DNA of 64,000 bases from Ceratorhiza oryzae-sativae. Taxonomy: Eukaryota > Basidiomycota > Agaricomycetes > Cantharellales > Ceratobasidiaceae. This document shows, piece after piece, positions 7,913 to 53,286 of the stretch (position 1 is its first letter; each line of letters starts with the position of its first letter). The DNA lies in assembly GCA_030998015.1 (NCBI GenBank), contig JARWMV010000047.1, forward strand, positions 1 through 64,000. The letters are read 5' to 3'. Below the pieces are notes generated by a model, which worked only from the letters and a program-made list of their open reading frames with translations, had not been told where the DNA came from and did not search any database. The position numbers and the translations under genes are program-made.

Positions 7913-9300
7913 TCTTTTACCAACTCATCGTCGGTTGTTTCTACATCCTCAACTGCTGCCTCGTATCCTGACATCTTGGCTGACGGGCATTTGGCGGCGA
8001 TGTGGCCGCGCCCTCCACAGTTGTAGCAGGTGTTTGTGCCCTTCCCTTTTCCTGCGCTATCCAGATCCATTGCATCTGGGTCCTTTGCCTTGGGGGCTGC
8101 TGGCGGATGGTTATCCTTCTTTATGTCCTTGAAGGATTCTTGTATGTTGGCATTACTGCCATTGTAACGGACGGTTGGAACCGTGAAGCCTTTTGCATTG
8201 GGGCCAATGGCCACGATTTGACCTTTTACGGCCCTGCCATCTTTAATCTTGTATATGCGTTCCCCATTCTTGAATTTCTCCTTTTGGGGAGCGCTTTGGG
8301 GGTTACTTGCGGGCCTGCTAGTCGAAGCATTGTTGCTGCTGGACTTATTACCCCCATGGGATGTCCTTTTGCTACCGAAGGAAATGAGGTGACGGTCGAT
8401 TTCCAGGGCCCGCTGTGTGAGCTGGGCGAATGTCTTTGTGCGGGGATCGTAGTTTTGGGCCACCATGCTATCTGTTACATCTGACGACAGACCATCATAG
8501 AACTGATCGCGCATGGCAGCATCGTTGTAGTTGAGGCCTGTGGAATATAAGTTGAATAGGGTGAGGTAGTCCTGAACCGTCTTGGATTGTTTCAACTTCC
8601 GCCACTTGTCGCGGTTATTTTCGGTGCGGTTCAGATCCCCATATCGGGTAGTAAATTCTTGCCAGAATAAATTGGCATCGTGAAGCCAGGGGATCGCCGT
8701 TCCAGGGTTGAGAATTTCGAATTCTTCATACGAGTTGACCCATTCCGCTGCTGACCCTTCGAGATAAGAGGTGATGAAGGCGACCACTTGGTCAGCCGAG
8801 TGTCCACTCATGTTTGTATTGATATATCGGGCACATGCAATTCTGAATGAGATGGCGTCTTCCCGTTTTGTGCCATCAAATTTTTGAGGGGCGGCCATCT
8901 TAACTTTTGCAGTTGACCCTCCAGAGGGAGCAGGTGCTGTTGGTTGTGGTTGAACTGTACCAGTGGGAGCTAGTACTTGAGCAGCACCTGAGCCACCCAT
9001 GGAGGTGTTGATTTGCGCCTCAATGCGCGTGATAGTAGTTTGGAGCATGGCTAACATTCCCACTAGGTTGTTGACATTGGTGGCTAGTCCAGCCACATCC
9101 GCATCTATTTTCGTCTGGTTTGTGGTAAGTTTGGCCTCGAGTGAATCTGTGTAGGTTTTATTATTGTGTTCGACGTCCCCAATATCATTTTGGAGGTTAT
9201 TGGTTTGTTCTCGAAGCTCGTCCATTGATCGAAGCATATAGATGACCTTATCTTCATCAGACATATTCGCCCAAGCAGGGGCAGGAGGTTGAGACGCCAT
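7909..9300 (-). CDS. gypsy Gag with zinc knuckle
   Basis: 463-residue capsid precursor of the gypsy element. It has an N-terminal coiled-coil-like part (residues about 20-90), a Pro/Ala/Gly linker, a retrotransposon-gag domain (AAPQKFDGTKREDAISFRIACARYI through LYSTGLNYNDAAMRDQFYDGL), a Ser/Asn-rich segment and a CX2CX4HX4C zinc knuckle (CYNCGGRGHIAAKC, about residue 428). It is open throughout. Its stop overlaps the Pol start as ATGA (7909-7912), so Pol is in the -1 frame and would need frameshifting or termination-reinitiation. Confidence 0.9.
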   Translation of the reverse strand: MASQPPAPAWANMSDEDKVIYMLRSMDELREQTNNLQNDIGDVEHNNKTYTDSLEAKLTTNQTKIDADVAGLATNVNNLVGMLAMLQTTITRIEAQINTSMGGSGAAQVLAPTGTVQPQPTAPAPSGGSTAKVKMAAPQKFDGTKREDAISFRIACARYINTNMSGHSADQVVAFITSYLEGSAAEWVNSYEEFEILNPGTAIPWLHDANLFWQEFTTRYGDLNRTENNRDKWRKLKQSKTVQDYLTLFNLYSTGLNYNDAAMRDQFYDGLSSDVTDSMVAQNYDPRTKTFAQLTQRALEIDRHLISFGSKRTSHGGNKSSSNNASTSRPASNPQSAPQKEKFKNGERIYKIKDGRAVKGQIVAIGPNAKGFTVPTVRYNGSNANIQESFKDIKKDNHPPAAPKAKDPDAMDLDSAGKGKGTNTCYNCGGRGHIAAKCPSAKMSGYEAAVEDVETTDDELVKE

Positions 9301-9510
9301 TTCAGAGAAGGTTTGATAAAATTTTAAAGGCGACGGAGACGGTAAGGAAGTACAGGGAATCGAGAGTTGTTTTGATAATAAAGAATTTCCGTTCCCCTCA
9401 CAAGTCTATAGATTTCAAAGTTCCCGATTCCCGCGAACCTCAACCAAGTATCGTCCAAGTCCCAGCTTTTGGTGTCCTGGCAACGATATGGACGCTCCAC
9501 CCTCTTTAGT

Positions 9511-10050
9511 TTAATTTGGTCCCAAAGGAGTGCTTCCTTGGGACGGATTGATTTGGGCTGCCGGAAGGGGTGTTTCTTCCTGAATTGGCGAGCCCGTGCC
9601 ACTTAGAAAGGTGGGGTGAGGGAGGTCTGACGGTGTTGAGAAGACGGGGAAGGCGTACTCGTGGGGTTCAATTGTTTCTTGGACTATTGCTTCTAGTCTG
9701 AGATGGTCTTGGAGGAGGGATAGGTAGTCCTCCTGGTGCTCGCGCAAACGCTTGGTTAAGTATGCGCAACGGGCCTTGGCTTCGTGAAGTTTTTCACGGG
9801 TTTCTTCGTACTTATTCCGGTAGTAACGGTACCTGTCTTGGAAGTTTTCGATAGTGTTTAGCAGGTGACGAAGAAGTTGTTGGCCAAGGTTCTCCAGCTT
9901 AGAGCTGGTTGCGAGGGATGGTGTAATAATAGAGGAATTTGTCCTTCTTAGGACAATAGGGGCAGCGCGCTGGGAAGGTGGCTCCGTTTGCCCGATGACA
10001 AATTTTGCACTCAGGGGCACCTGGCTCGGTGACAAAGGCTTGTTGGGCAC
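9511..10050 (-). CDS. gypsy leader frame 2: coiled-coil protein
   Basis: 179 residues. A central heptad-like, strongly charged helix (LENLGQQLLRHLLNTIENF through LREHQEDYLSLLQDHLRLE, about residues 52-118) is flanked by Pro/Ser-rich ends. It lies upstream of gag in the same orientation. No family recognised. Together with frame 1 it may form a zinc-finger plus coiled-coil leader protein. Expression is unproven. Confidence 0.42.
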   Translation of the reverse strand: MPNKPLSPSQVPLSAKFVIGQTEPPSQRAAPIVLRRTNSSIITPSLATSSKLENLGQQLLRHLLNTIENFQDRYRYYRNKYEETREKLHEAKARCAYLTKRLREHQEDYLSLLQDHLRLEAIVQETIEPHEYAFPVFSTPSDLPHPTFLSGTGSPIQEETPLPAAQINPSQGSTPLGPN

Positions 10051-10330
10051 GTCCGACTTTCTGGGGGCGGACTTTGATGATTACTACTTGGTTGAAATCA
10101 ATGTGCCCAGCTTCTTCAAGGATACTTTCGACCGAGTTGAGGGTGAAACAGTGGATCGACAGGTGTCCGAACCACCCACACAGACGGCAGCGCTGGTCTT
10201 CTGTAAAAGGTTGTGCCACTTGAGGGCCGTGGGTTCCGTCAGAGACGTACTTGAGCAAGAGCAAGATAAAAGAGAAAAATAGACCCTTTCCCGAGTCTAT
10301 TGGAATAGGAAGGTGACCTCCGTTGCTCAA
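9899..10330 (-). CDS. gypsy leader frame 1: small Cys/His-rich protein
   Basis: 143 residues between the 5' LTR and gag. It has an N-terminal hydrophobic segment (FFSFILLLLKYV, about residues 18-29), a zinc-knuckle-like motif CRLCGWFGHLSIHC (about residue 48) and two further CxxC pairs (CKIC...CPYCPKK, about residue 107). It resembles no gag I can name. It overlaps leader frame 2 by about 150 bp in another frame. Its position in the untranslated leader and its lack of stops suggest an accessory gene, or part of a spliced reading frame with frame 2, but it could also be a chance frame. Confidence 0.45.
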   Translation of the reverse strand: MSNGGHLPIPIDSGKGLFFSFILLLLKYVSDGTHGPQVAQPFTEDQRCRLCGWFGHLSIHCFTLNSVESILEEAGHIDFNQVVIIKVRPQKVGRAQQAFVTEPGAPECKICHRANGATFPARCPYCPKKDKFLYYYTIPRNQL

Positions 10331-10585
10331 CTACTTAAGGGCAATGAGCGACCCCACCTCTTGTTGACGAAAGAGATTAGAGAACCGAAGCTTGTTACAA
10401 CGTGTGAGGGACCTGGCTATGCAAGGTTTCACAGAGGCGCGTATAGGGCAACGATGTCTCGTGGCTGTGGATAGGTGGAGTGGGATTGGGGAAGGCAACG
10501 AGGAGTTATCTCAAGACGACGCCGACGGTGTTCCAAAAGTATCCCAGACGACACTGAGACTTACGATTGCAAGAACTTGACCTGA

Positions 10586-10962
10586 TGTCGACGACGACAA
10601 GTCAGGCGACGAGGAAAATAGTAAGAAAGGTAAAAGAACTTGTATTCGACGAGAGGTCAAGTTCTTGAGGAGTCCTCTGCGAACTTGACCTGGTTTATAT
10701 ACACGGTATGAGCCACATCATAACAAACAAGTCTGTACAGTGAGTCACGACAGATAAGAGATAGAAGCAGTAGAAGCGACTGCGGAACTGCGGAATTTCA
10801 CATCAGAGTTGAAATACATCTCGGTTACCGGTCCGGAACATTCCCTGAGTCACATGATACAGATATACCATAAAAGGCAAGTATGTTTTGAAGATGATCT
10901 CATAAAATGTAGTAAATCGAGAAAATATTGTAGAGTGGATATATGCGTGTCAGTTCATGACA
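10586..10962 (-). repeat. gypsy 5' LTR
   Basis: 377-bp partner of the LTR at 4018-4394. Its right end adjoins the target duplication GCACT (10963-10967), after which copia protease sequence resumes. Confidence 0.93.
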
Positions 10963-10967
10963 GCACT

Positions 10968-11582
10968 GTAGAATCGGTATGTGTAACCTTCGCCTGCACT
11001 TTGTAGAGCTGCCCTGACTGCCTTGCCCATCCTATCTCGTCGCCTCGGCCATCTTGACTAATCATGATCACGCCAATACCCCTCTGGAACAGCACATTTG
11101 TTTGTCGCTCGTTGAGCTGGGTCACGGACATTAGGCTCGCATTCAAATCGGGTACGTGGAGCACTAATCCCATATATGCGTCCGTCTCCTGACCCTTGCA
11201 ATTATGAAGCGTGACCAATATTCGGCCAATGCCGACAGCATATATCTTTGTTCCATCACCCACTCGAACCGGGACTGGGGGTACAAGGGACTGGTAAGTT
11301 GAAAACCATTCGCGCTGAGGGGTCATGTGACAAGATGCCCCTGAATCTAACAGCCAATAATGCACGGCTGTTTCTTCATCAACTACAGGTAACGCATATA
11401 GCGTTGGTATCTCTGGTACGTCGTCCGTAGCTACAAATGTCGTCGCGATCTGCGCTGATTCGACTTTTGGTTTCGCATCACCAGATTTGGGTTTCTCCTT
11501 GTCTTTCCCTTTATCTTTCGGCGACTGCCGCTTTTGGAACGGTCCTTGGCCCTCTGCACCACCTCCTTTTGCCCAGCATTTA
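10968..11582 (-). pseudogene. copia protease segment
   Basis: Minus-strand reading from about 11572: the downstream end of a gag zinc knuckle (KCWAKGGG), a Lys/Asp/Pro-rich linker, then the aspartic protease active site WLLDSGASCHMT at about 11350 with the following copia-type sequence up to VQAKVTHTDSTV. The frame is broken on the left by the gypsy element (10967) and on the right by the 11583-12895 insertion, which splits the gag zinc knuckle between HLRA and KCWA. Confidence 0.85.
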
Positions 11583-12895
11583 TGTTACGGGTCAGGGTAC
11601 ACTTGAATATCTAGAGCTTAAGCAAATGTAGATATGTTAGTATACACTAATTGTACTCAATACTTCTTAGACTAGAGTAAGAAGGCTCAAAGTAGTTGCA
11701 ATGCGATCAAGTAACACTCAAGGTAGTCTTAATCTTTCACAGTATAAACTGACTAATTTATAAATATAAAGAGCAAGACTACTATGGTCAGGTTCCCTTA
11801 GATATCTTAAATGTAGTTCAGCCCTAGTCGCTTGGACTAACTGATACTAATCTTAATACTAGGCTTAAGCGATAGCTTATAGAATAAATGGTGGGCTGCC
11901 TAATGCATGTACTTCCTCAGCTACAGGTACTTAGATTTCCTCTAATAGCTGGTACTTAATGTCACGCTCAATCAGGCAATATTGTATCCTTATATATCTC
12001 TGTATATAAGATACAATGAATCAGACAGTATATAACTAATATGGTACTTTATTCCTCAGTACTAGTTATATAAGAAATCACACACAGACAAGAGAAATAG
12101 AAAGAGAAAAGAAACCAATAACCGGTCTGGGTTTAGTAGTGAAGGGAAGGTGAGGTGGTCTGGAAGGGCCTCAGAGGAGGTCCTTTTATACCCTGAGGAG
12201 GGCATTCCAGAGCCAAATAGATACATGCAGGCCAGTGCGATCATCAAAAGAGGGTACTGCTATACTTGGGGTACACCCTAGCCCAGTATAGGATAAAAGA
12301 GTAAAGACAGGGTGTGGATCGAAGGCATTGATGCATCTGAGACCTGCTATTGGCTTGTAGATCATATTATCATAGTATATACATGTAATGAATGGAGGCT
12401 ACATCTCAGTGAGTCATACAGTGAGTCAGAGAAGCTTCTGGATCAATTTGGGAAGCTCTCCTGACTCACTGGAGTCATTAGATCTTGATTGATGGTCCAG
12501 TAAGATTCTAATGATCTTTGGGCCATTCCGGCGCGAGGATGCGGTGGATCGCGACGATCTTTGGGCAGCAGATACCGCCGAAGATTGGCTATCGATAGAG
12601 CACAAGATCGCTTTGATAGCGTAAGCGGTTGCCGAGATATGAGCGGTGCGATGTTGTAATCAATATCTCCTGATAAGAGGAAATATCGCAACCTCTGTAT
12701 CTCTCTGAGATCTTATCATAAAAACTTAATAAAATATGCGTTGGAGAGCGGGAAATTTGTACTATTTAATGAAACAGAAAATAGTACAATTCAGAGCGCA
12801 TAAAAATTCGAGTATTTCACAATTTAATTACAGAGGCATCGCTTGAGGTTGGCAGAGCAGACTAAAATAATAGAAAATGTTAGTGATCCATAACA
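11583..12895. mobile_element. 1.3-kb TG...CA insertion, probably a solo LTR or non-coding LTR element
   Basis: Begins TGTTACGGGTCA and ends TGATCCATAACA, giving short inverted ends TGTTAYGG/CCRTAACA, and is flanked by the perfect 5-bp duplication ATTTA (11578-11582 and 12896-12900). Removing it with one duplication copy restores the copia gag zinc knuckle in frame. TG...CA ends and a 5-bp duplication indicate an LTR retrotransposon integrase product. I see no internal long direct repeat and no long coding frame, so a solo LTR is most likely. It is AT-rich with several short TATATA tracts (for example 11991-12008). Confidence 0.72.
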
Positions 12896-13748
12896 ATTTA
12901 GCCCTTAAGTGTCCGGGCTTGCCGCAATTGGAACAGGTCTTAGGGCTCTGCCTGGACTGCTGTTCCTTGGCCTTCGACGTTGCAGTTTTGCCCTTGGCAA
13001 TGCTCGTGAACATTGCGGTGAGTCCAAGACCCTTCTTGCGACGCTCTTCCTCGGCTAATGCGGCCTTTATAACTAAATCGGAGGTAATTGAACCCAATTG
13101 ATTCGACGTCTGGATGACCGTGCTGACAACGGCATACGATGGAGGTAACGCATTCATTATAATTTGAGCGAGCATAGAGTTGCTAATCGGTTTGCCTAGT
13201 GTTTTCATCTTCAAAGCGATCGTACGGAGGGAATTTATACCTGCGGTAATGTCATGATCTTCTTCGATCTTCGTATTGACTAGTTGGTGGTACAGGAAGG
13301 ATATCGATTGAGCTCCCTTCCCTTCCCACCTTTTGACGACTCGCGTCCACGCCTCTTGCAATGTTTCGGCCTTGACAATATCGGCTAGTGCCTCATCTTC
13401 CATCGCCAATGCGATCTGGGCGAGAGCCTCTTGATCACGTTTTAGCCACTCGGCTAGGGATTCAGTATATTCACTCAACCTTGATTTGTCTTTGGCATCG
13501 GCATTGGTGAGTTCAGCTGGGGGTTTCTCGACTCCGAGAACGATGTCCTCTAGGCCTCGTAGGCGTAGGACCATTTGCTGACGAAATTTCCATGCCGTGT
13601 AATTAGATCCGTCGCTCTTCAGAGCGGGAACATCGAGCGACTTCTTGCTCAAGTAGCTCAGCTTGTGGCTTGAAGACATCGCTGGCGGGACTGTTACCGG
13701 GTCGACGGGGCTCTCTGGTTTTGTACTAGTAGAGGCTGCGGGGCTCAT
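12896..13748 (-). pseudogene. copia Gag, N-terminal part
   Basis: Minus strand from ATG 13748: a Ser/Pro-rich start, then the copia-type gag domain (LKSDGSNYTAWKFRQQMVL; LADIVKAETLQEAWTRVVKRWEGKG; LVNTKIEEDHDITAGINSLR), then CSNCGKPGHLRAK, the first half of the zinc knuckle, cut at 12896 by the 1.3-kb insertion. No stops within the preserved part. Confidence 0.85.
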
Positions 13749-13794
13749 AACCTCTCACGCAGGGAGGTTTCTCGTGGCTAAGATACAAATTGTA

Positions 13795-32310: not shown

Positions 32311-35300
32311 ATGTCCGGAAGAGAGTGGGATAACGTCAACTTTGGGCAAATTGCGGTACGTACAGACTACGGCTGACCCTCGCCCGGTGAGACTGAGACC
32401 TCTGACTATGTTCTAGGAAGTGAGATGCATCATTACAACGGCAACCGGCGCTAACTGCGCCTTGCACAGGAGCATGACGAGATCAAGGGGCGAGTGAGTG
32501 TCCAGACCCATGAGTCCAAGTGGGGATCTCATACGTGGTCCCATGTGACCCTGTTCCGTGATTTATCAGTCCGAAATACGAGCGGAAATCGCACGTTGGG
32601 TACGTTGCACATGTTTCAATCTACTGTGAGGCTAATGACACCCGGATTGGATGCTAGGTGGCAAGTTTGATTTCAGGGAGTCGCCATGAGGGTGCGCTAA
32701 TCGAAATAGCAATTGTTTAATCTAGTATGTGAGTGATCGAGTGGTTGTCGCGCCTATCTTATTCCTGGATTAAACGCTTCATTGCAGAAGGTGCGCCAAA
32801 GTATCACACAATGAAATCGGCTTAACATCTAACGATAAGCATAAAGCGAGTACGTGTATCATTGAGCTGTGCAAAAGGAGGAGCGCTGAAGTAGCGGATA
32901 CATGGTCGAAAAGCGGCGTGTGAGTGGTGGTCATGGACATGTGAACGGAGTATTCACCGGAAGGTGAGTGTAAGCGGAGTATGAAAATCACCGACAAAAG
33001 TGTAACCAATGAAACGGTGTTATAGATGTGCTTATTTGAAAACTGCATGCATAACAAAATATAGCCTGTAAGCAAGTGGTATTGGTTACTAGCACATTCT
33101 CTCATGCCAACCCTCCCACTCTGTTGCATGTCAGGATGTGAGTGAACAAGACACAGCCATGGCATACTCTGACCACACCCCTCTCACTCTGTTGCATGTC
33201 AGGATGTGAGTGAACAAGACACAGCCATGGCATACTCTGACCACACCCCTCTCACTCTGTTGCATGTCAGGCTGTGAGTAAACAAGACACAGCCATGGCA
33301 TACTCTGACCACACCCCTCTCACTCTGTTGCATGTCAGATTGTACTCGGCCAAAAGCAAATTCGCTAGTTAGGGCTAGTTATCGCCCTGGTTCTACCTAA
33401 GCCGAATTGACACCCGGGTAGCTCAGATTAGCAGCGCTACTGGCGTTTATTCTGCTTAGGTAGAACTGGCGCTCTGACTAGCCCTCAGTAGCGAATTGGA
33501 TTTTGGCCGAGTAAGTGAACAAGACACAGCCATGGCATACTCTGACCACACCCCTCTCACTCTGTTGCATGTCAGGATGTGAGTGAACAAGACACAGCCA
33601 TGGCATACTCTGACCACACCCCTCTCACTCTGTTGCATGTCAGGATGTGAGTGAACAAGACACAGCCATGGCATACTCTGACCACACCCCTCTCACTCTG
33701 TTGCATGTCAGATTGTGAGTGAACAAGACACAGCCATGGCATACTCTGACCACACCCCTCTCACTCTGTTGCATGTCAGCTGGTGAGTGAACAAGACACA
33801 GCCATGGCATACTCTGACCATACCCCTCTCACTCTGTTGCATGTCAGGATGTGAGTGAACAAGACACAGCCATGGCATACTCTGACCACACCCCTCTCAC
33901 TCTGTTGCATGTCAGGATGTGAGTGAACAAGACACAGCCATGGCATACTCTGACCACACCCCTCTCACTCTGTTGCATGTCAGCTGGTGAGTGAACAAGA
34001 CACAGCCATGGCATACTCTGACCACACCCCTCTCACTCTGTTGCATGTCAGTGGGTGAGTGAACAAGACACAGCCATGGCATACTCTGACCACACCCCTC
34101 TCACTCTGTTGCATGTCAGTGGGTGAGTGAACAAGACACAGCCATGGCATACTCTGACCACACCCCTCTCACTCTGTTGCATGTCAGACTGTGAGTGAAC
34201 AAGACACAGCCATGGCATACTCTGACCACACCCCTCTCACTCTGTTGCATGTCAGGCTGTGAGTGAACAAGACACAGCCATGGCATACTCTGACCACACC
34301 CCTCTCACTCTGTTGCATGTCAGGCTGTGAGTGAACAAGACACAGCCATGGCATACTCTGACCACACCCCTCTCACTCTGTTGCATGTCAGGCTGTGAGT
34401 GAACAAGACACAGCCATGGCATACTCTGACCACACCCCTCTCACTCTGTTGCATGTCAGACTGTAAGTGAACAAGACACAGCCATGGCATACTCTGACCA
34501 CACCCCTCTCACTCTGTTGCATGTCAGGCTGTGAGTGAACAAGACACAGCCATGGCATACTCTGACCACACCCCTCTCACTCTGTTGCATGTCAGGATGT
34601 GAGTGAACAAGACACAGCCATGGCATACTCTGACCACACCCCTCTCACTCTGTTGCATGTCAGGATGTGAGTGAACAAGACACAGCCATGGCATACTCTG
34701 ACCACACCCCTCTCACTCTGTTGCATGTCAGTGGGTGAGTGAACAAGACACAGCCATGGCATACTCTGACCACACCCCTCTCACTCTGTTGCATGTCAGG
34801 ATGTGAGTGAACAAGACACAGCCATGGCATACTCTGACCACACCCCTCTCACTCTGTTGCATGTCAGTGGGTGAGTGAACAAGACACAGCCATGGCATAC
34901 TCTGACCACACCCCTCTCACTCTGTTGCATGTCAGGATGTGAGTGAACAAGACACAGCCATGGCATACTCTGACCACACCCCTCTCACTCTGTTGCATGT
35001 CAGTGGGTGAGTGAACAAGACACAGCCATGGCATACTCTGACCACACCCCTCTCACTCTGTTGCATGTCAGCTGGTGAGTGAACAAGACACAGCCATGGC
35101 CATACTCTGACCACATCATCCCCACACTACCACATCAAGGAGGTATGTCACATATCAAAATATTGATTCTCTCTTTTAACCTTCCACACTTTGCTTGCCT
35201 CCAGTTTGTGGGTCACTACCATATTAAATCCTATAATTGTAACTCATTACAGATCCTTGCCCACCCTGCCTTCTAGAACGTGAGTGTTATCTAGGTTCTA

Positions 35301-37629
35301 CCAATTTCTCTGAGCTTCTCATTCAATCTGGGCAAATAAAGCATGTATGTCCACAATGTATGCATCTGACCAGACAGCCTGCAGCTGAATTTCTCTCAAG
35401 GAACCTGTAGGCACAGATCTTTGCAACCCAATCATTCTCACTTGGCCATTCACACTATACTTTCTATAATAGGTAGTGAGTGTAACACTTTTCTTACTCT
35501 TGTTCCCAATCTGCCATATCTATTCACATGCCCATAGTGTCAGTAGGGGCTGCAGTCAGAATATCGACTCATGCCTCTACCTTGTTCCCCCTGCTCTTGT
35601 TCCTGCCACTCATCACTTGGCAGGTAAGTCTTCTACTCATTCTCATAGTACCCCTCGTGGTCCTCTTGTCCCTGATGCTTATTGTTGCTTCGCCTCACTG
35701 AATCTAGATGGTTCGTATCATCTATTCACATGCATCAATCCCTAAACTAATTTCTGACAGACAGTGAGTACTCTATCGGCAATAGCTGCTTTCTAATCAC
35801 GTCCTGACAGTATGTTGCCCAAGCTGGTGCGCCAAATGCCACTACAAATCGGTTGCACCTCTGATTGCGACCGTTTATGAAGGCCGTAAGTAGATATCTT
35901 ATCGCCATTTGACAGTCTTGTATCTCGGCGCACTAGGAGGTATGTGTGCTCAACCCCCTCATGCTCCCACGCTCTAACCCACGTCTCACAATCCATTCAG
36001 ATCGTGAGTACTCTTCTCGTCACACAGGTTTCACGTTGACATGCCTTGGCGTGCAGGAAGTAAGTACATAACGGTTATGTAGAATGAGACTTTTACCAGC
36101 CTACCATGCGCGTACATAGGTGAGTTTTAGATTTCACTCAAAGTATACCGCTTGAGTGTCTGGGGAACGAACGACAGGCAGTAAGATTTTATTAGTTTGC
36201 CTTCCATACACGATCCTGAGGCGTGCTCTTCCTTCACAGTTCTTTCATGAACACCCTGGCCGGAAGAAACCAATCCATATCAACGCCGATACAGTAGGGT
36301 TACTGTATATTTCTTCGAAATGATTAACCTGATTTTTATCCATTGCTAATAGCCACTTTCGACGGTCGTTCAATACCTAGCTACCCACTCACAGATTGCT
36401 GACCTCACAGAGATTCTGCCTAGCTCAGCGAGGCCCATACCTCCAGCCGTTGCACGTACCGCTCTGTCCGACGTTTACTGCATCATGATCTCTGACGAGC
36501 GGCAAGTGGCAGTCAAGTGTCTGAGGCAACGCGACAACAAGGAAGTTAAAGTACGCACAACCAAGTATCACGTTCACCTACTCGGTACTATTTTACTTCC
36601 ACTTGCACACAGCGCACTGCTCGTGAACTGAACGTTTGGTCAAAGATGAAGCATAGGAACATACTCGCACTCGATGGTCTAGCGATATTTCAGAACTGTC
36701 TGGCAATGGTATCTCCGTGGATGGCATATGGTAGCGTGTGCGAGGTACTTCGGAAGTGGCCGGATATGAAGCGGTTCCCTATGGTATGGATATGAGCTCT
36801 ATGCCCAATGAGCCTAGCAGCATTGCGTTGACCACACTCTAGTGTCTACAACTGGCTCAGGCGATCACGTACCTGCATGGAGAGAACGTAGTAGGTTTCT
36901 ATTGTCTCGCTTCACGCACCGTTGTTCCTAACGTAAAACTCGTCGAGGTTCATGGTGACATCAAAGGAGTGGGTAACGCTTGATACGATAACTGTCGGAC
37001 CAGTAACACAGCGCGAACAGGCTAACCTTCTTGTGGACGGAGACGGCACGCTCAAGCTTACGGACTTTGGGCTCGCAATCATGCACGACAAGGTGTTGGA
37101 GTTTTCTCAGACCGATCCAGGAGGAGGCACGCTGCGCTGGATGGTGGGTTTAACTAGTGCAGGTACCTACGACGAGCTCAACTTTGTGTATGCGGACTCA
37201 GGCGCCGGAGCTTCATCAAGAGAACGCTCAACGATCACGCGAGGCTGACATATATGCGATGGGAATGGTGAGGCATTCGAGATTCGTGACCAACATAGTT
37301 GCTGACGTGTATACAACACGGTTAGACAATGCTTGTGAGAATGTATTCGCGTATCGGCTTGTCTCAAGCTAAATCTGATGCAGGAGATTATTACGGGGGA
37401 ACTTCCGTTCAAGGAGATCACTCAAGGGTACCGGCTTATCACGGAGGTCGTAGACAAACGTCGAGTCCCTCAGGTACCTTTACTCGAAGGAAACACAACG
37501 TCTCCAAAAGCTACGATTATGCTTAGTGTACTTCGGTGGTGTTGGAGCTATGAGCCGAGCGCGCGGCCAACTGCATCGCAGGTTGCTTTGGTGGTAAGCA
37601 CTATTGGCAATGGATGGCACACTCTCTGA
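32311..37629 (+). CDS. protein kinase gene with dozens of single-codon exons
   Basis: Predicted Ser/Thr-type kinase of about 350 residues, roughly 60 introns, nearly all phase 0. 5' exons: 32311-32355 (MSGREWDNVNFGQIA), GAA 32417-32419, 32470-32493, 32570-32599; then candidate single codons GTG 32658, TAT 32726, AAG 32788, CGA 32847, CCT 33065, the 27-codon array (33135-35074), GAG 35140, TTT 35205, AAC 35277, CAT 35342, GTA 35473, ATG 35708, ACA 35761, TAT 35811, GCC 35883, GAG 35937, ATC 36001, GAA 36057, GCA 36178; then exons 36240-36293, 36353-36550, 36613 on. Kinase motifs: QVAVKCL, HRNILALDGL, HGDIKG/ANLLVD, LTDFGLA, RWM/APE, CWSYEPSARPT. The Gly-rich loop is missing (ARTALSDVYC). The start could also be ATG 32146, as the frame is open upstream. 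Areas 32914-33064 and 35538-35707 are ambiguous. The 3' kinase part is firm; the microexon part is a splice-signal reading. Confidence 0.65.
33135..35139 (+). repeat. tandem array of 27 intron-plus-one-codon units (68 bp each)
   Basis: Each unit is three variable bases followed by a 65-bp constant part that starts GTGAGTGAACAAG and ends TGTTGCATGTCAG. Spacing is exactly 68 bp apart from one MITE insertion. The three-base words are GAT (10), GCT (5), TGG (5), CTG (3), ATT (2) and ACT (2), all sense codons. In the constant part I noticed only isolated changes (33280, 33821, 34465), plus the diverged last unit. GTRAGT donor, CTGAC and CTCAC branch-like motifs and CAG acceptor sit where a fungal intron needs them. 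The first unit is preceded by CCT plus an intron that shares only its 3' half with the repeat, and the last constant part shares only its 5' half yet still ends in AG after 65 bp. The unit contains no CpG. Confidence 0.95.
33345..33511. mobile_element. 167-bp hairpin MITE in the array, TA target
   Basis: Ends CTCGGCCAAAA / TTTTGGCCGAG, flanked by TA (33343-33344, 33512-33513); the two arms pair over most of their length (for example GGTTCTACCTAAGC with GCTTAGGTAGAAC). It landed two bases into the donor of the fourth array unit. Its last G recreates GTAAGT at 33511-33516, and the left junction keeps a GT at 33342. Confidence 0.88.
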
Positions 37630-43880: not shown

Positions 43881-45848
43881 TTATTTATCGGAGTGAGGGG
43901 TGCTTCGATCAACGACACTTGTGACGGAAAAACAGATTGGAAAGGCTATCATTAATATAAGCTGTCAGCAGCATCGTCAGGAGCTGGTAATGAGCAACAT
44001 ACCGGCAAGTGGAGCTCAGAGGCGCTCATAATCGGCCGTTGCGGCGAATCTTCTAACCAGCTCCCACGCGTCACATCTGAATCCGAGCTCAGTTCGGCGC
44101 AAAGGGCCCCTATTTGACGTAGCTGATTAAACTTCGTCTGGATAGACTCTGTAAAGCTGTGCCAGTCGGTTACATTCTTTTCGCGCGCCGTCAGGGTCAG
44201 GGCACGAAGAAAATGGTCACCTGGCCGAGAGGTACCGTCCTCGTTGAAGCCCACAGTTGATTCGTAGCTTCGCTCGTTCTCTTGGCTGGAGGCGAATGTA
44301 ACGAAAATAGGGGCGTCGGATATAGTGCTCTCTTCTTGGGAAGGGAGACTAAGGTCCTTGAGGTCAACCTTCTGGCGCATGAGCGCTCCGGCCATACAGC
44401 TCGCGAAAATGGAAAGAACGATAACGCCCGGCATCGTGTTTTCCACCACTGTTTGTTCCCACACGTTGCTGGAATTAAGTCGTGTTCGCCTCGGCACACA
44501 GGAGGTACGATCGCCACCGTCCCATCACCAAGCATAGAACGCGTGTGTCCTGTGAAGATTATCGCACGTACGTCACCGGGTCTCGTCGCTGAGCGCAGGA
44601 ACGACCGGACTCGGTTGAGCACATCCTCACGGTCAAAGTTGTTTCCTACTAGGGTTTGAACAGAATAAGCCCTCTGTCTAAATGCTGATTTGAGGGACTT
44701 GGTATCCAGCTGCGCACCCTGGAGGGAAGCCAAACTATGTCGATAAGCAAAATCACTTGCGTCCCTCTGGTAGTTACTGCCAATGACAAGCAACTTCCGC
44801 TCGGCCATGCTCTCAAAGTTTTGAGACATCGGAGTGTGGAATGTGGATTCTCCGTGTATGCTACCCGGTACACCCGTGTCGTCGAAAGAGTGCCATTGAG
44901 CTGGAGAGGATCGATATGATTCGCCGTCTTCTGCTACATACTGGATTTCCGCTATTTCGCAGAAATTCGCAACACCTTCGATGACGGCTTGTGGGGCGAC
45001 TGGGGTGCGATCGTCATCGTCGTGATCATGGGTATCCCTTGCAGCAGTATATGTCGTATTGATGCCTGATAACGGCAAATCGGAGGTCCTCGGTGGGCAA
45101 ACTTCCACGAGAACGTATTGGGAAATTTCGCAACTGCTCTCGCGGGTAGTTATTCTGGGGAGCGGTAATGTGGTAGCACGATGGAGTGAAGTTGGAGTCT
45201 TGAGCGCATGCGCGTACGTCGGGGGTGGGTGGACGGTCAACTGTCCTTTGGCTAATAAAATATTATTATTTCATATCATTTCGAGATTTGATACCTACAT
45301 GCCGTGTGAATATCAGGTTGATAGCTCTCTACTATTCCATCTCCAAGCAGATCGTGCCATCTGTCCTTTGACGGAGTTTTTCGTTTGGCCGGAGAGGACG
45401 ATGATCCAGAAGGTGAACCCAGGTTCGGAGAAGCCACCGCAGAGGCAAGACTGTTGACAATTGCAACTATGATAGCATACAGTCCAGATCGATTTAGAGT
45501 CAATCTGGGATATGTTATTAACTCACGTGCACTATGAGTCCGTGGCCCTTTGCCATTAGGGACTAGGAAATGTGACCAATTGCTCCCAGTATTACTGCTC
45601 GTTGAACCCCGCCGAGCGGTCTGCCCGAGTAACATAGTATTAGCACTTGGTAGACCGTGCGGTACACCATGCGAGAGCGTAACTCCTATTTTGCTGAAAC
45701 GTATTCCAGCTCTTCCTCCAGGAATCGGGATCGTAGGGTGAGTGGCTGCCAGAGAAGGATCTGACGTAGGCAGCTCTACCCAGTTGTCTTCTATTCTTGC
45801 GCCTGTTGTGGCGCGCCGAGTGTTTCTTCGAATGTAAGAACTCATGCC
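43881..45848 (-). pseudogene. caspase-like protein 1, frameshift between His and Cys motifs
   Basis: Minus strand. N-terminal exons from ATG 45848 (MSSYIRRNTRRATTG; later KRKTPSKDRWHDLLGDGIVESYQP) join through introns at about 45474-45532 and 45253-45301 to the main exon. Caspase-type core: ERKLLVIGSNYQRD (first strand), LDTKSLKSAFRQRAYSVQTL, GDVRAIIFTGHTRS (catalytic His), then VIVLSIFASCMAGAL (catalytic Cys) and APIFVTFASSQENERSYES. The His part and the Cys part are in different frames; they cross over at about 44470-44510, where I find no convincing intron, so a 1-bp indel is likely. It ends via the family's LP|GTATGT intron (43962-44002, only 41 nt) in a short exon with AFPICF, stop 43881. 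The N-terminal extension is longer than in its neighbours. Confidence 0.7.
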
Positions 45849-46583
45849 GCATACGTCAAACTCGAGATGTAGAGCGATCAAGTGGAGCAGGTAGTGTTTG
45901 AGCTATTTGTAAGGGTGCAACGCGCTTAACTGTGCCTCGTTGTTTCCGGGCATATAACGCATGGCTGACGCACACCTAGGGCCTGGGGGCTAGATGACAT
46001 GCAGTAGCCATACACATGTTTCCCCGCCATCCTTCGGCCTGTGAAGTATGGAGATCATTTGAGTGCCCTCTTTCGGGTCGCTAAAACATATTATCTGTTT
46101 GCCACAACGTTCGATCGCATTGTGTTCGACCGAGGCTGGTAAGGCTTTAGTGAAATAATTGGCCTACAAGCAGGTTTATTTTCCGAGTGAATGGCTGTAT
46201 GATTACGACCAGGTGCGACTCGAGAACCGCATCCCGACCCCACATATCTGGGTAAGGTCCCGCAGCAGTAGTCATTGCCACAGGCTCGCTAAGGCTTGTG
46301 TATGCAGTAGGATTTACTGGAGGAATGAAAATTATATCTCGAGGCACAAAATTAGAAATCACAATATGATAAATGAAAAAAACCAGGTGCAACTGTTGAC
46401 CATACAGCTGGATAAACCCGATGCGGCTGAACAACAAACCAGTCCGGGGCCCCAGACGTGTTCATTGCAAGGAGGATAATATGCATGCAAGTGATCAAGT
46501 ACCACACTGTTGCCGATACGCTCGTTTAGATTTATTGAAAAGTGCCTCGAAGATAGAGTAAAAGGCGACAGGGGCTAATTGGA

Positions 46584-47829
46584 TCATCGGTCTGAAATTA
46601 AGGCCTCTTCAGAACTCATTGGGAATAAGTATTTGTAGGACTAAAAATAGGAGAATCAGCAAAGGTGTATGGATCTCAAATTCAGCGCCTACTGGACGAC
46701 GGCTGGGGTCATCCACGATTAACCTTGGGTGCTGGGGATGGTCACGTAGCCACGAACGGGAATTGTCTGGCTCAAACGCTTGCGCAGCTCTTACTCTATT
46801 TAAGTAAAAGTTATCGTTCAATGTGTCAACGAAGTTGGTCCAAGTTTCGATTCCCGGGTCTTTGGCAGTCTCAGCAAGTGCCCACAGGAAATGGTCACGG
46901 GATTCCCGTTCATCCGGACTAAGCGACGATTCATATGTTTCCTCTCCCGATGTGCTGGAGCAGAAGGTGATATGTATCGGTACGTCTGAGAGGACTGGAT
47001 CTTGAAAATCTTCGCGGTTCCCAAAATCATCAATGCACACGCCTTGCTCTGCAAAGCCCCCAGCGAAACAAGTGGAGAGAATAGAAAGAATGATGACCCC
47101 TGGCCTAGCGTATGTTCGAATTGTCCGGTTCCATTCGGCAGCGGTGATCGTGACTTCTTCCTCGATCGGTGGAACCATTTCTGGGGCGGCTGACAGGGAT
47201 GGTCTAGTGGAGTGACCCGTGAACACAATCGCGCGAACATCGCCTGGCAATGCCGAGGCTATAAAGTCAGCGACCTTGCTCAAGACTTCGTCCCGTCTGA
47301 AGCCTGATTGGGTCATGGTTTCAACTGAGTAGCGCCGCGTTTGGAACGCCGACCGAAGTGCTCTGACGTCGTTTTGTAGCCCATAGAGAGATTGGTATAA
47401 AGTCGAGGCAATAGTGAATTGGGTACCCCTCCGCCTCGCCAGCGCATCATAGGTACTACCGATAATGAGCAGTTTTCTTTCAATATAGTGCGGAGCCGTA
47501 TGCCATGTGTTGGTGGTAGAGGCCGTTTGCTGTCTCGTAGGCAGGCCAGATGAAGACGCGAGAAGATCCAGAGATTCGAGGGCCGTCATAACTTCTACTA
47601 TATTTGATGATTCTTCGGCGGTACCCTCCCCTGGAAGACGGAACCCAGTACCGGGAGTCAGGGCGACGGGAGAGCTGACCGGTGTAGTTCCTGGATTAAT
47701 ATATTCAGTAAGGGCCGGATTGTAAACCTGGATGTGGGTCTGAATGGGTCGCGTTGGAACGACAATAGGGGGAGGAATGCTTCGAGATGAAAATGACGTG
47801 AGGCGCGAGCTAAATGATAGGAGGTACCA
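46584..47829 (-). CDS. caspase-like protein 2
   Basis: Main exon with the segment PGTTPVSSPVALTPGT (shared with paralogue 3), IERKLLIIGSTYDALARR, LQNDVRALRSAFQTRRYSVETM, GDVRAIVFTGHSTRP (catalytic His), ARPGVIILSILSTCFAGGF (catalytic Cys), SDVPIHITFCSSTSGEETYES, SRDHFLWALAETAKD and WLRDHPQHPRLIVDD. The 3' end has two readings: unspliced, a 26-residue tail with the hydrophobic LLILLFLVLQILI ending at 46609; or spliced at 46612-46663 (GTAGGC...TTTTTAG) to a tail with YLFPMSSEE ending at 46584, which matches the FP tail of the paralogues. The 5' exon is not resolved. Predicted Cys peptidase of the caspase/metacaspase clan; the Asp before the metacaspase DCCHSG motif is absent. Confidence 0.78.
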
Positions 47830-49011
47830 CTGACCGCTGCACTGAGCGTTCAGGTCTGACGGGCGGACGGACGGCTAGCATACAACAATGATAGATCCAT
47901 CAAGACATCCTCACAAGGGTGAGTAACCCTACGCACGAGGCTCATCTGTTGGCTGGCTTGAGTCCACCAAGAGACTATGCCAAACCGGTCTTATAGCGCG
48001 GTGGGTGGTCGTAGCTGGGCTAGTTGTATTGTTGTTGGAAGATGATTGGGCGTCATGTCGTCGCTGGTTATGTGTTGTGTATCGTACAACTAAAAGGTAG
48101 AAAAGATTAAACAAGTTCGCCCCCAATCAAACCAACTGGTTTACATGTGCTATCACCGGCCTGGTACGATGTTTGTCTGCAATGTCCCCTGGAGATCATG
48201 TTGAGTCAAGTATATTAGTGCCCAGAGCTCGCCTATTCGATAGTGCAGGTGCCCAAGTAAAGTAAGACAGGGGGGTCAATCACAAGGGGGGGGGGGATGA
48301 AGCTGTACACGAGTGCTTTTATGGAGAGGCGGAAATCAGTGCCGTTTCCTGATGAGAGGCTGGATGTCCTAATTTGACAGGAAGCCAAGCATGGTAATCC
48401 ATCATCCGGCATATCTAACTCGGTATAATAAGCATGATTGTGTAGTCGAGTTTTTGTTGGGTTCTACTCTGCTGACGATAAACTGCAGACGACGCAAATT
48501 TAGCGTCGTATTGCGGGACTCGGGGTGTGATTGCGGGGGTCGGGCACATGCTCCAGCCATATTTGAGGTGAATAGAGACTTCGGCTAAATCCAAGTATCG
48601 CTCATACCAGAACAATAACCAACGTGTGCGTGGAGTGAAAAAGCAGGAGCAGAGTGCTGATGGGGCCTGCTTGGTCCCTAGGTGAAGCACGAAACCAGCG
48701 GCAGAATAGAGTTTTAGTTGCCCCGTGGTTGACTCGTGGTATTCGCGCGGTAAGACTGGCAGTTGATATAGCCGGAATGATCACTTCGCTTCACCCATCG
48801 ACATAAACGTGGATTCGCATGACGGTCGAAAGGTTCAATACTGACCCCAATAGATCACGTGAAAATGGGGTTTTCTTTTATTGGCATCAATTTTATCGAC
48901 CAACATGAGACACGTGAAAGTGGTCGAATTCAGAATACAAGTACAACATGATATAACAGTACATTTATGGGATTCAATCACGTTATAAGGGCCAGGATGC
49001 GAAGCGGCGGC
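47830..49011. other. intergenic region in the caspase-like cluster
   Basis: No supported gene. Presumably holds the 5' exon and promoter of caspase-like gene 2 and the 3' flank of gene 3. An 11-bp poly-G run lies at 48286-48296. Confidence 0.45.
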
Positions 49012-50816
49012 TCAAGCACCCGCCATGACTGTATCGGATTTGGTTGGGAAGATTATTCCCATAGCCTGTTTACGGCATCAATGAGAACGGTACACAACCT
49101 ATCAGAAAACGAGACGAGACATACCGGAAGTCGTCCAGGTGTTGCAGCAATCATTGGATGCTGTTGATGGTTATAAAGCCATTCCCAAGGTCCTTCTTCT
49201 GTGAAATTCGACCCCATAGCTCGCACATAATCAAAGTATTGTTGTAACATCGTCATAAAATCCGACCATGTTTGGACCCGTGGGTCTCGGGCTACCGTGG
49301 CCAGTGCCAATAAAAAGTGGTCACGAGGCCGTTGGTCTCTTTCATTATAACTCGATTCAAAGGACATTTCGTCGGACTGACACGAGCTGAAAGTGATAAA
49401 GACCGGGGCATCGAGGGCTGCCACATTGCCGATCTCTTGGGACCCGGTAAAGTTGGTGACGCGAACCGCTTGATCAGCAAATGCGCCAGAGTAGCAGGAT
49501 GCCAAGATGGAAAGCACAACGACACCGGCTTTGGTATTCGCTCGGATGGCCTGGTTCCAATCGTGTGCGCTGATGATGATGTCGGACGAGACACCTGGAA
49601 GAACCATGCAAACAGAATCATGGTGTTTGATTGCATGCCCGGTGAAGACAAGTGCCCGTACATCCCCACGAAGAGCAGGACGTAAGAATCTGGCTATTTC
49701 TTCGACAAGTTCTGTCCTGTCACGAAGTTGGCGCTGGGTTATGGTATTAACCGAGTATCCCCGATTCCGGAACACAGACGCTAGGCTCTTCACGTCGTGA
49801 TGCGTTGCGTACAAGGCATTAAGCGACGAAGCGGTGCTAAATCGAGTACTCGCTTGCATGGTGTCTTTATCATAGTCACTGCCTATGATAAGCATTTTAC
49901 GCTCGCACCACTGGTCGGCCGTTTTGTAGGATGATTGGGAGTCCTGAGTAAACTGTCTCCCAGTGGGTAACACTTGGCAGATGAGCGCATCCAAATTTGA
50001 GACTGCCGCGAAGATATCGTCTAAAATTGGCTCCTGAACATCATACAATGTACTTCGCCTGTATGCTTCCGAGCCCGGGAATAGAGCCACGGGCGAGCCG
50101 GATGGGGTAGAACCTGGGTCGAGCAACTGTGTATGATCTGGGTTGATAGGTTGGATATGAGCGTACTCGTCGACGTCCGGAACAGCTATTGGAGCCGGGG
50201 GGTTGGGGATTCGGGATAGCAAACGACTCGGCGTGGTCGAAGCTGGGGGGGAAAGCAGGATCGAGGAGTCATTCTCGGCCAGCTCGAAGGTGGCCGTCTG
50301 GGGGGAACCTATAAAGCCATATTAAGCCTCGCACTCTTGCGAAGACTAGCAGCGTTCTACCATCTGCCATCTCCAAAATGGACGCTTCGTCTGTCGAGTT
50401 TGAGGTTGCGATTATATGGACCCATCTTGAGTGTGTGAGACTATGATCCAAAGACTCTGGACCGTGGAAAAGGCTGCCGCTGAGCGGCACAGCGTGGGCC
50501 ACGTTGTTGGCGGAATGAACTAGATGAGAATTTGATCTCAATACACCCTCTAGACATCTCGACAGTTCAATTTACCTGCGGCACCTATGCTGCGCTTTTG
50601 GTCATTCTCCGATGCGGCCCTCTTGAACCAGCGTGCTCTGGGCTCGATTTCCGACTTGACACGTCGGAGACTGTTTTGCCATTCGGACGCATTCGCTTTG
50701 AGTCGTTCGATTTTATCTCGTGGGGGAAATGTGTGGCGGCGAAGTATGGGTTTGTCGTGGGGGTCGGGTCGGTCCATAGCAGAAAATAGGTGGGCGGCGT
50801 CTAGGGAGTGGGGCAC
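49012..50816 (-). CDS. caspase-like protein 3
   Basis: Three exons on the minus strand: 50576-50816 (MPHSLDAAHLFSAMDRPDPHD...LRRVKSEIEPRARWF), a phase-1 intron 50309-50575, main exon 49125-50308, phase-0 intron 49066-49124 (donor GTATGT), and last exon 49012-49065 (AMGIIFPTKSDT...). Core: CERKMLIIGSDYDKDT, HHDVKSLASVFRNRGYSVNTI, GDVRALVFTGHAIKHHD (His), AGVVVLSILASCYSGAFAD (Cys), LDAPVFITFSSCQSDEMSFES, PRDHFLLALATVARDPRVQTW and WLYNHQQHPMIAATPGRLP. Both catalytic residues are kept. Exon layout and phases match paralogue 4 exactly. The N-terminal exon has charged-helix character. A role in programmed cell death or non-self responses is plausible by family but not shown. Confidence 0.82.
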
Positions 50817-51660
50817 CAGTCAACTGCTCATACGGCGTCAGTCCTCAGAGTTCAAATAGTTGGAACAAATCGCCTACGCCATGTTTCAGCTCGAGAAACC
50901 GGGATATGAGTGACGCGGAGAAGGTTACGCAAGAGGTATGGGCTTGCCGATGCCTTCCGATATAAAACTTGACCGGCAGGGCTGTGGAGACAATAGGGAA
51001 GTTAAGCTGCCGACGACTGCTTCGTGCTGCCAGGTTCCTGGAGACACGTTGTGGCGGAACCGAGCGGGCTTTTAAAAAAAAAACTCAAAAATCCTTTCTA
51101 GGGAAGATCCCGATCTAAAACTCCACCAAAAGCGACGAAAAGAAATACGGGACAGATGATCAGTTAAGGCTGTCCATAGCGAAGACGAAAACGCTGGTTG
51201 ATTATCACAGTTTGCTCCGACTTGGTTGAGTACGATCCGCGGTTCAAAGTGCGGAGATTCATCACCGATCAGGAGGTTCTGTCGATCGACACCATGAGCC
51301 GCAGCATTGGGTAGGGGCAACAACTTGGTCAGCAAGCCAAAAGTTATCAGCGAACAGTGACAGCCCTAAAAAATCCAGCATTTCGAGCCGCTCTCGTCTT
51401 CGCTGGTTAAGAGAGCAAGGGTGGCGGGTAAACCAGAATGTGCACACATTTGAAAGTGGTCTTTCCAGTCAGGGAATATTGCATAGTACAACAAGGCTGA
51501 CATACATACGCGACCCCGAGGAGAATTCAATGCGAATTCACGCTAAAATACCAATATAAACGCATCATTTGGTGGTTCCCAACTCGAACTTCAGTAGTAT
51601 AGCCACTGCGACAGGACGATGAGCGCGGAGCATCCGAAACTTACGCCCAGAGACGAAAAG
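50817..51660. other. intergenic region
   Basis: No supported gene. Two short minus-strand frames (51072-51447) lack motifs. Contains a poly-A run at about 51075-51083. Confidence 0.45.
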
Positions 51661-53286
51661 TTAGGCGGAAGGGATGCTTGGCATAGTGGGGAATACAACC
51701 TGGAATTTCTTAATTTCGAGTCAGTCGGGTGGCGTGTATGACCTTGGTGCTCAGAGACAACATACCGGAAGCTGTCCCCAAATAGGCAAAGAAAGCGCGG
51801 GAGTCTGGGGGTTCTTGCTAAGCCATTCCTGAAATCCTTCCTCTGCAGCTGTTGAGCCCAGGTGTCTGGCATAGGCGAAATACTGGTGGAGCAACATCAT
51901 GAACTTGGGCCATGAATCAAGGCTCGAGGTTCGGACTACTCTGGTGAAAGCCCACAAAAAGTGATCGCGAACGTTTAGTTCAACGTTGCCGAGAGCTGAC
52001 TCGTACGAGCTTTCTTGGGGACTACAAGAGGTAAAGGTGATGAAAACGGGGGCATCTAGACTGGCAAGTTTCTGTATTTCCCCGGGTTGTTTAAAATGGG
52101 CGAGAGGTATAGCCTGGTCGGTGAAGGCCCCAGAGAAGCACGTCGCGAATATGGATAGCACAATCACCCCCGGTTCTGAATGCGTTCGAATGTTTTCCTT
52201 CCAGTCTTTTGCACTGATAAAGATATTATCCGATATGCCGGGGAGTAGTATACATGGAGAATGGTCGCGAGTCATGATGGAGTGGCCACTGAAAACGATC
52301 GCACGGACGTCTCCTGGAAGCGCAGAAGCCATAAAGGCGGCCACTCTCGTGAGTATTTCGTCCCTGGTAAACTCCTGCGGAGTCAGAATCTCGATTTCAT
52401 AACCTAGCACTCCGAAAGTAGATTCCATGTCGTCTATATCGTTTTGAAGTGCGTGGAGCGACTGCAGCGAGCCGATGCTGAGTCGTGTGTTACACCTTTT
52501 GGTACGGTCACGATAGTCGCTCCCTATGATCAACATCTTTCTTTCGCAGAGCTGTTCAACGCTGTAAAATGTCTCCGTAGGCGACGTGATTCGTGTCGTA
52601 GCAGATGCGGGACTTTCGACAGGTGCCATCGGGATGAAAGTATTGTACCACTCTGGGGCTCGTGTGGAGCGAGACGGGTTTCGCTCATGGAAATTAGCGA
52701 CAGGAGTTGAGACGGCCGGGGCAGGGGAGGTTTGAATTCGAGGGTTTACATTCGGACATGGATCCAAAGGGCAAGAATTATTTCTGGCGCGAGCTGGTGA
52801 CCGGAGTGATCCTGTTGGTGGTGTGAGGTGTTGGTCAAAATCGAGTGCCTTGAGGCCTGCAAACTAGTCTGACATTCGATCGTGAACGTTAAAAAATATG
52901 CGTTCGTACCATCCCCTGCCTGAATATCTTGCCCCAGTTCGGTGGGGCGTTCAATTGGTAGTATTCCGGCCCACCGAAAACGAGAGTTCTGTCTCACAGC
53001 AACAGACTCGAGCGGATAGAGACTAGCCTGGAGTGGATGTGGCTTCGGCTTGAGGTTTGCAGTGTCTGTTCAAGTTCCTATCGACTCAGTCGGACGAGAC
53101 GATGATATGCATAGACTCACCCACCGGGGCCTCATCGTTCGAAACCACAGAGTGAAACAAGGGACCTTTGGTACCAATTTCCGAGCTTACACGTCGCAAC
53201 TTGGCCCCAGCTATCTGAATCTTGGACAGCTGTGGTCTAATATGATGACGGGATCCAGTCGGTTGTCGCGAGTTTGCTGGGTTCAT
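51661..53286 (-). CDS. caspase-like protein 4
   Basis: Three minus-strand exons: 53121-53286 (LRRVSSEIGTKGPLFHSVV, alignable with LRRVKSEIEPRARWF of paralogue 3), phase-1 intron 52812-53120, main exon 51766-52811, phase-0 intron 51709-51765, last exon 51661-51708 (KFQVVFPTMPSIPSA). Core: CERKMLIIGSDYRDRTKR, LQNDIDDMESTFGVLGYEIEIL, GDVRAIVFSGHSIMTRDHSP (His), PGVIVLSIFATCFSGAFTD (Cys), LDAPVFITFTSCSPQESSYES, VRDHFLWAFTRVVRTSS and WLSKNPQTPALSLPIWGQLP. Both catalytic residues are present. Closest to paralogue 3; a tandem duplication is likely. Confidence 0.83.

Follow-up and report, generated by a model that had tools for sequence, protein, structure and literature searches.

The window analysed here, a stretch of 64,000 nt of the basidiomycete Ceratorhiza oryzae-sativae (contig C47), carries on its forward strand a predicted protein kinase gene, whose upstream part appears to be divided largely into exons of a single codon, 27 of them in a tandem array (Table 1). 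The kinase part belongs to PF00069 (130.7 bits, cut-off 31.7), and its closest named relatives, among the 120 of 160 matches listed, are from Ceratobasidium (e.g., 58-60% identity over 99% of the query). The kinase gene model covers the exons to 37473; the rest of the last exon was added by reading on. Elsewhere in the window are long open frames (3237-13754) which we take, by eye, to be retrotransposon gag-pol pieces, and several related open frames (44197-52863 and 62301-63540), presumably caspase-like by their appearance, which may form a local gene cluster.

Table 1. Features of the predicted kinase gene and its array (L012, a related kinase locus; C251, the paralogue on that contig).
Feature	Position	Strand	Remarks
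First exon, predicted, MSGREWDNVNFGQIA	32311..32355	+	ATG frame, GTACGT donor
Single-codon exon GAA (E), predicted	32417..32419	+	ctag-GAA-gtgaga; L012 has gtatag-GAG-gtaaga in the same place
24-nt exon EHDEIKGR, predicted	32470..32493	+	L012: 24 nt, GHESVKGN
30-nt exon SEIRAEIARW, predicted	32570..32599	+	L012: 30 nt, RNIRPILGEW
Single-codon exon TAT, predicted	32726..32728	+	Strict AG-NNN-GTRNG site; TTG in two paralogues
Single-codon exon AAG, predicted	32788..32790	+	Strict site
Single-codon exon CGA, possible	32847..32849	+	Weaker acceptor aaag; CGG or CAG in paralogues
Single-codon exon CCT, predicted	33065..33067	+	Strict site; CAT in C251
Left edge intron	33068..33134	+	Last 24 nt are the end of the unit intron (1 mismatch)
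Array	33135..35074	+	27 predicted single-codon exons, predicted peptide DDAIDDILDDLWWTAAATADDWDWDWL, with the 65-nt unit intron between them
MITE-like insert, TA duplication	33343..33513	+	Within the donor of the 33339 unit
Right edge intron	35075..35139	+	First 41 nt are the start of the unit intron (1 gap)
Single-codon exon GAG, possible	35140..35142	+	aag-GAG-gtatgt, weaker acceptor
Single-codon exon TTT, predicted	35205..35207	+	Strict site
Single-codon exon AAC, predicted	35277..35279	+	AAT in three paralogues, synonymous
Single-codon exon CAT, possible	35342..35344	+	Weaker acceptor
Single-codon exon GTA, predicted	35473..35475	+	Strict site
Single-codon exon ATG, possible	35708..35710	+	Weaker donor gttcgt; GTG in C251
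Single-codon exon ACA, predicted	35761..35763	+	Strict site
Single-codon exon CTG, possible	35824..35826	+	Weaker acceptor here; strict site in three paralogues
Single-codon exon GCC, possible	35883..35885	+	Weaker acceptor
Single-codon exon GAG, predicted	35937..35939	+	Strict site
Single-codon exon ATC, predicted	36001..36003	+	Strict site
Single-codon exon GAA, predicted	36057..36059	+	Strict site
Single-codon exon GCA, predicted	36178..36180	+	Strict site with looser donor
Protein kinase part	36240..37593	+	Eight exons, phase 0 joins; a short last exon may come after
Kinase exons	36240-36293, 36353-36550, 36613-36783, 36843-36890, 36948-36968, 37021-37143, 37202-37267, 37384-37593	+	

The array, its paralogues and its flanks

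Each of the 27 variable triplets of the array is flanked by AG and GT. A first-pass annotation of the window had listed their words and coordinates, and all 27 were found again: GAT ten times (33135, 33203, 33576, 33644, 33848, 33916, 34596, 34664, 34800, 34936), GCT five (33271, 34256, 34324, 34392, 34528), TGG five (34052, 34120, 34732, 34868, 35004), CTG three (33780, 33984, 35072), and ATT (33339, 33712) and ACT (34188, 34460) twice each. Its unit length of exactly 68 bp holds for 25 of the 26 steps from one triplet to the next; the other, from 33339 to 33576, measures 237 bp, because a MITE-like element sits in the donor site of that unit. This 169-bp transposon-like interruption is palindromic, with a TA target duplication, and the GTAAGT at 33511, at first taken for a variant unit donor, is actually its far edge. 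The element is found in at least 40 places in the genome (40 of the 55 candidates scored), several of them 98-99% identical, so that it is likely to have been active recently.

Neither strand has a frame open across 33135-35142: each frame has 22-32 stops, and no open run exceeds 78 codons. The 65 nt between triplets read as a fungal-type intron that starts with the donor GTGAGT, ends with the acceptor CAG, and has a branch word, CTGAC, whose A lies 30 nt from the 3′ end. This unit intron is a hybrid, made up from the introns on either side of the array: its bases 42-65 match the end of the left one, with 1 mismatch, and its bases 1-40 the start of the right one, with 1 gap. The array edges do therefore lie inside introns, as had been proposed, and the hybrid indicates that the array most likely grew by unequal crossing-over.

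In the genome as a whole (48.8 Mb, 253 contigs), the unit occurs at four loci: that of the window, two in C12, and one in C251. There are 56 exact pattern matches and 66 matches at up to 3 mismatches, all within these four paralogous arrays; the unit intron was not found outside them at that threshold, including as single sites in unrelated genes. Identity of the three paralogues to the window is 94-97% over the kinase region, 92-96% to the left of the array, and 97-98% to the right. The arrays contain 27 (C47), 16 and 10 (C12), and 17 (C251) triplets, with the predicted peptides DDAIDDILDDLWWTAAATADDWDWDWL, HRDRWIIWRDAQWIIW, WFLIDDIDRD, and DWIWARAARWAARLARD, respectively; the order of the codons is unrelated among the four, and the 65-nt intron consensus is identical in all. 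By alignment, the edge structure is common to all four copies, which suggests that the array is likely to be older than the gene duplications and to have turned over since.

Sixty-five complete units from the four loci were compared (of the 70, the last unit at each locus and the unit that the insert interrupts, 5 in all, were left out). Among these, 106 of 195 triplet cells deviate from the consensus, vs. 25 of 4225 intron cells (Fisher p = 6e-133), which bears out the claim that variation is almost wholly held to the three bases between splice-site-like borders; variation spread evenly over the 68 bp, named beforehand as an observation that would count against single-codon exons, was looked for in the paralogues (not in strains) and was not seen. 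The same counts do not fit an ordinary minisatellite, whose variation would not be held to a three-base block. Variants occur at 20 of the 65 intron positions, each in at most 3 of the 65 units; triplet types reach high frequency. The block between AG and donor is 3 nt in all 65 units, with no change of length. Over all 70 triplets there are 12 types, none of them a stop codon, which by our reading can be linked by single-base steps, two of these synonymous.

The kinase frame of 298 codons (a count that runs the last exon to 37596, one codon into the donor) is open in all four window-type copies. In the kinase region of these copies, 59 of 894 exon columns are variable vs. 55 of 463 intron columns (p = 0.0013). 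The changes fall 19, 19, and 21 to the three codon positions, and non-synonymous changes outnumber synonymous ones in all six pairs; this even spread and non-synonymous excess indicate that constraint on the kinase is weak.

The predicted string of single-codon exons continues outside the array. To the right, in non-repetitive sequence, there are 7 strict sites ([CT]AG-NNN-GTRNGY), vs. 0.14 in shuffles, none of 300 reaching 7, and none on the opposite strand; a looser donor gives 8, and 1 on the opposite strand. The same search with other exon lengths (0, 4, 5, 6, 7, 9, 12, 15) yielded only length 0 (two sites) and 7 (one site). To the left there are 3 strict sites, and 1 on the opposite strand, or 4 with the looser donor, a count that one shuffle also attains; this part of the gene is not cleanly parsed into exons. 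Its longer exons vary like its introns in the window-type copies (10 of 99 vs. 66 of 711 columns). The corresponding counts for single-codon exons and introns are 5 of 15 vs. 66 of 711 to the left, and 2 of 39 vs. 49 of 1118 to the right, so that the divergence counts show no constraint on single-codon exons in the flanks.

No stops are found among the 72 strict sites listed. A stop-avoidance test on 68 hand-listed triplets outside the 68-bp arrays, drawn from strict sites and paralogue variants, gave p 0.04-0.09; four weaker overlapping AG-NNN-GT sites, which are stops, are absent from this list. The absence of stops is weak evidence for coding.

At 35624, 36120, and 32964 of the window, and near 7086 of the related locus L012, an acceptor AG runs straight into a donor GT, which could mark the loss of a single-codon exon or a point of recursive splicing. 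In the window and in L012 alike, one such site comes a step ahead of the final single-codon exon.

Related kinase genes

Besides the four paralogues, 20 stretches around kinase matches (146 matches) were surveyed, about 50 listed kinase loci lying outside this set. Six had chains of single-codon-exon sites, namely L025-L026 and the four almost identical copies of a single locus, L012-L015. In the remaining 14 no chain reached three such sites, and L018 has one of two.

The L012 copies contain a string without a repeat to account for it. Between the ATG and the FLRTHP exon of L012 there are 32 sites of exon length 3 (shuffles: mean 0.52, maximum 3, n = 200) and none on the reverse strand; some 30 lie in a row, with unrelated introns, in a region where tandem repeats with a period of at least 20 were not reported. 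The chains are alike in all four copies. A branch-like word (YTNAY) lies 8-50 nt from the end of 26 of the 30 intervals between successive sites, a count made without a shuffled control. An interval of only 21 nt shows that at least one site cannot be an exon, and three intervals of 106-139 nt may conceal exons with weaker sites. The window and L012 have the same order of short exons: E (3 nt), 8 codons, 10 codons, the string, and an 18-codon exon. Over the first three, 7 of 19 residues are identical, equalled by 1 of 20000 shuffles (with an exon register of our choosing); no similarity was found between their introns.

Among the L012-type copies there are 28 variable columns in the N-terminal region (2386 bases in L012), vs. 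2 in about 1400 bases of the kinase part, which we place in an intron and downstream. The script assigns none of the 28 to a triplet, a weak result since only about 1.1 would be expected by area; column 4983 is inside a longer exon and, as we read it, synonymous. Three of the 28 represent a single 3-nt insertion in L015, next to its first GAG exon (the counterpart of L012 4903-4905); an equally good reading is that GAG has turned into GAGGAG, in-frame growth by one residue. No intronless copy of the L012 gene was found in its own genome (8 matches, all exon-sized). L012 and L014 (contigs C39 and C234) lie at most about 1.5 kb from a contig end, and are perhaps subtelomeric.

L025 (161-3662) and L026 (5271-8018), two copies of a third kinase gene, each have a similarly organised array ahead of the kinase, consisting of 33 and 26 units, respectively, of about 107 bp. 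A word of this unit, at up to 2 mismatches, has 57 matches in the genome, only at these two loci. Of the 57 junctions, 34 have a 3-nt exon, nine a 2-nt, two a 1-nt, and one a 0-nt exon; 11 were left unclassed by the script, and by eye nine of these lack the usual GT and two have a 2-nt exon. Because a 3-nt exon is found at just 34 of these junctions, we regard the array as at least partly broken. Its junctions are nevertheless diverse, with 23 types in the 57, vs. 18 deviating cells of 5487 in the rest of the unit; that a partly broken array still varies at the junction suggests that mutation acts locally, in addition to selection or in its place.

A predicted hypervariable segment ahead of the kinase, and its alternatives

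We consider it probable that the exon string is real, and that splicing would join its codons one at a time into a hypervariable segment preceding an intact kinase frame. Transcription, splicing, the function of the protein, and selection on it are all things that we infer. The array would have begun with one pre-existing single-codon exon, and unequal crossing-over between the introns around it. This origin, suggested in the first-pass annotation, agrees with the anatomy of the unit, the hybrid edges, the paralogues, and the second gene family; its description of each unit as one intron plus one single-codon exon likewise agrees with the anatomy, paralogues, and second family, with the splicing itself a prediction.

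The introns would be excised in turn, each unit leaving one codon behind, and their homology would allow recombination to add, remove, or exchange units, with the triplet free to differ. With exons of 3 nt, a unit that is gained, lost, or skipped would alter the peptide by one residue and leave the reading frame as it was; because intron homology serves unequal exchange, the protein would need no repeat of its own. The kinase would thus be preceded by a hypervariable segment, 10 to 27 residues long across the four copies. To explain the variability of the triplets, we would favour diversifying selection on this segment. Whether a class of fungal kinase genes writes a recognition segment in this way, one codon per exon, changing its length and sequence without frameshift or protein repeat, we regard as an even question.

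The selection step is where a second explanation departs from this one, and is otherwise compatible with it: the exons may be real, and their triplets vary through mutation or repair focused on the junctions, not through selection for new residues. We hold this as a tentative alternative. The 107-bp arrays speak for it, with their diverse junctions (0-3-nt exons, lost donors) in an otherwise nearly invariant unit, as does the connection of the 12 triplet types of the 68-bp arrays by single-base steps. The 68-bp triplets, however, show no change of length in 65 units, and types at high frequency where intron variants remain rare; the missing length change could itself stem from purifying selection on splice sites.

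As a further possibility, the array could be an intronic minisatellite, its outer donor joined to its outer acceptor, with the whole removed as one intron and the triplets non-coding. The units are so alike that a donor in any of them could be joined to any acceptor further downstream. Stop counts are uninformative. A dynamic-programming parse with free exon lengths, a weak model (12 kinase introns in training, no branch-site term), mostly passed over the array triplets: in the window, 2 of 27 came out as single-codon exons with the lower intron cost and 0 with the higher one, and in C251 2 of 17 with either, exons of 41-49 nt being preferred in the arrays; in L012, 3-nt exons made up 21 of 29 at the lower cost and 4 of 17 at the higher. 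Against such a minisatellite, the variable block lies exactly between AG and donor and keeps its 3 nt in every complete unit, and in L012 predicted 3-nt exons follow one another although the introns are unrelated, so that a repeat cannot be what fixes the length there. We judge removal as a single intron improbable.

A pseudogene or an assembly artefact is a good deal harder to credit: a MITE breaks one unit, and the kinase seems weakly constrained by codon position, but the arrays stand at four separate loci, and the kinase frame is open in all of them. Insertion of an introner-type element, copied in after each codon of an older coding stretch, would put a near-identical intron behind every codon but can practically be set aside, as the codon strings are unrelated in four close paralogues, the unit was found only in these four arrays (66 matches), and the hybrid edges fit unequal crossing-over instead.

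Comparison with known systems

Several known systems share one or more properties with the predicted string. The micro-exon genes (MEGs) of Schistosoma have many short, mostly in-frame exons, mostly of 15 bp (range 3-81 or 6-81) and separated by introns of 0.1-5 kb; they encode secreted parasite proteins, and their variants come chiefly from alternative splicing of central exons (as described in PMC10526429). The window gene resembles them in its row of many short in-frame exons, and by its sequence signals has the series of very short in-frame exons by which micro-exon genes are broadly recognised; it falls outside the narrower Schistosoma pattern of mostly 15-bp exons and long introns, since its predicted string exons are 3 nt, its introns mostly about 50-100 nt, and it ends in a kinase. 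The aphid bicycle and megacycle genes are divergent, with many unusually small internal exons (almost all of them phase 2 in bicycle genes), and one gene has more than 100 microexons (according to PMC9168663). Many very small internal exons are common to both; the kinase, the one-codon strings, and the array of identical introns set the present gene apart from the aphid genes as they are described there.

In the Podospora hnwd/het-e WD-repeat genes, homogenised repeats rearrange and variation is focused on four codons per repeat (as reported in PMC2873952). Homogenised repeats with a few hypervariable codons are found here too; in Podospora the repeat is a coding WD40 repeat, whereas the homogenised part here is intron-like, with one predicted codon per repeat. 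A 68-bp repeat coding for a WD40 blade was rejected, there being no open frame through the array. The stretch preceding the kinase would be hypervariable as the hnwd specificity codons are; a role for it in recognition would be speculative. As for selection of the hnwd type, variation is localised, here at the triplets, a pattern that selection and local mutation share.

Splicing of a single 3-nt exon is known from mouse Ncam (PMC8042270); the size is the same, but that exon is isolated, where here there are a string and an array. Introner-like elements are multiplying introns in fungi (PMC4457414); the near-identical introns here occur only within one tandem array per paralogue, and the same intron was not found in unrelated genes (all 66 matches at up to 3 mismatches being in the four arrays). 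A 2024 paper describes functional microexons as previously undescribed in filamentous fungi (PMC11121469). No report of strings or arrays of single-codon exons was found in the literature searched, with subscription journals mostly outside that search.

If transcripts confirm the prediction, tens of consecutive one-codon exons would be spliced in order in a fungus. This would bear on how the spliceosome handles exons far below the usual length, and would be a form of protein diversification with the homology for recombination in introns, and a single codon as the coding unit.

Gene predictors are unlikely to detect single-codon exons. In other species, the N-terminus had one match (P0047, covering 45% of the part searched), and a further comparison matched none of 8 candidates. 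Three Ceratobasidium homologues marked as partial (P0003, P0004, P0005) start at, or five residues before, the FF..HP exon, the point where the window's string of single codons ends. Their contigs are short (3.5-6.3 kb), so these homologues may simply stop at a contig end; their truncated starts would also fit genes shortened in annotation.
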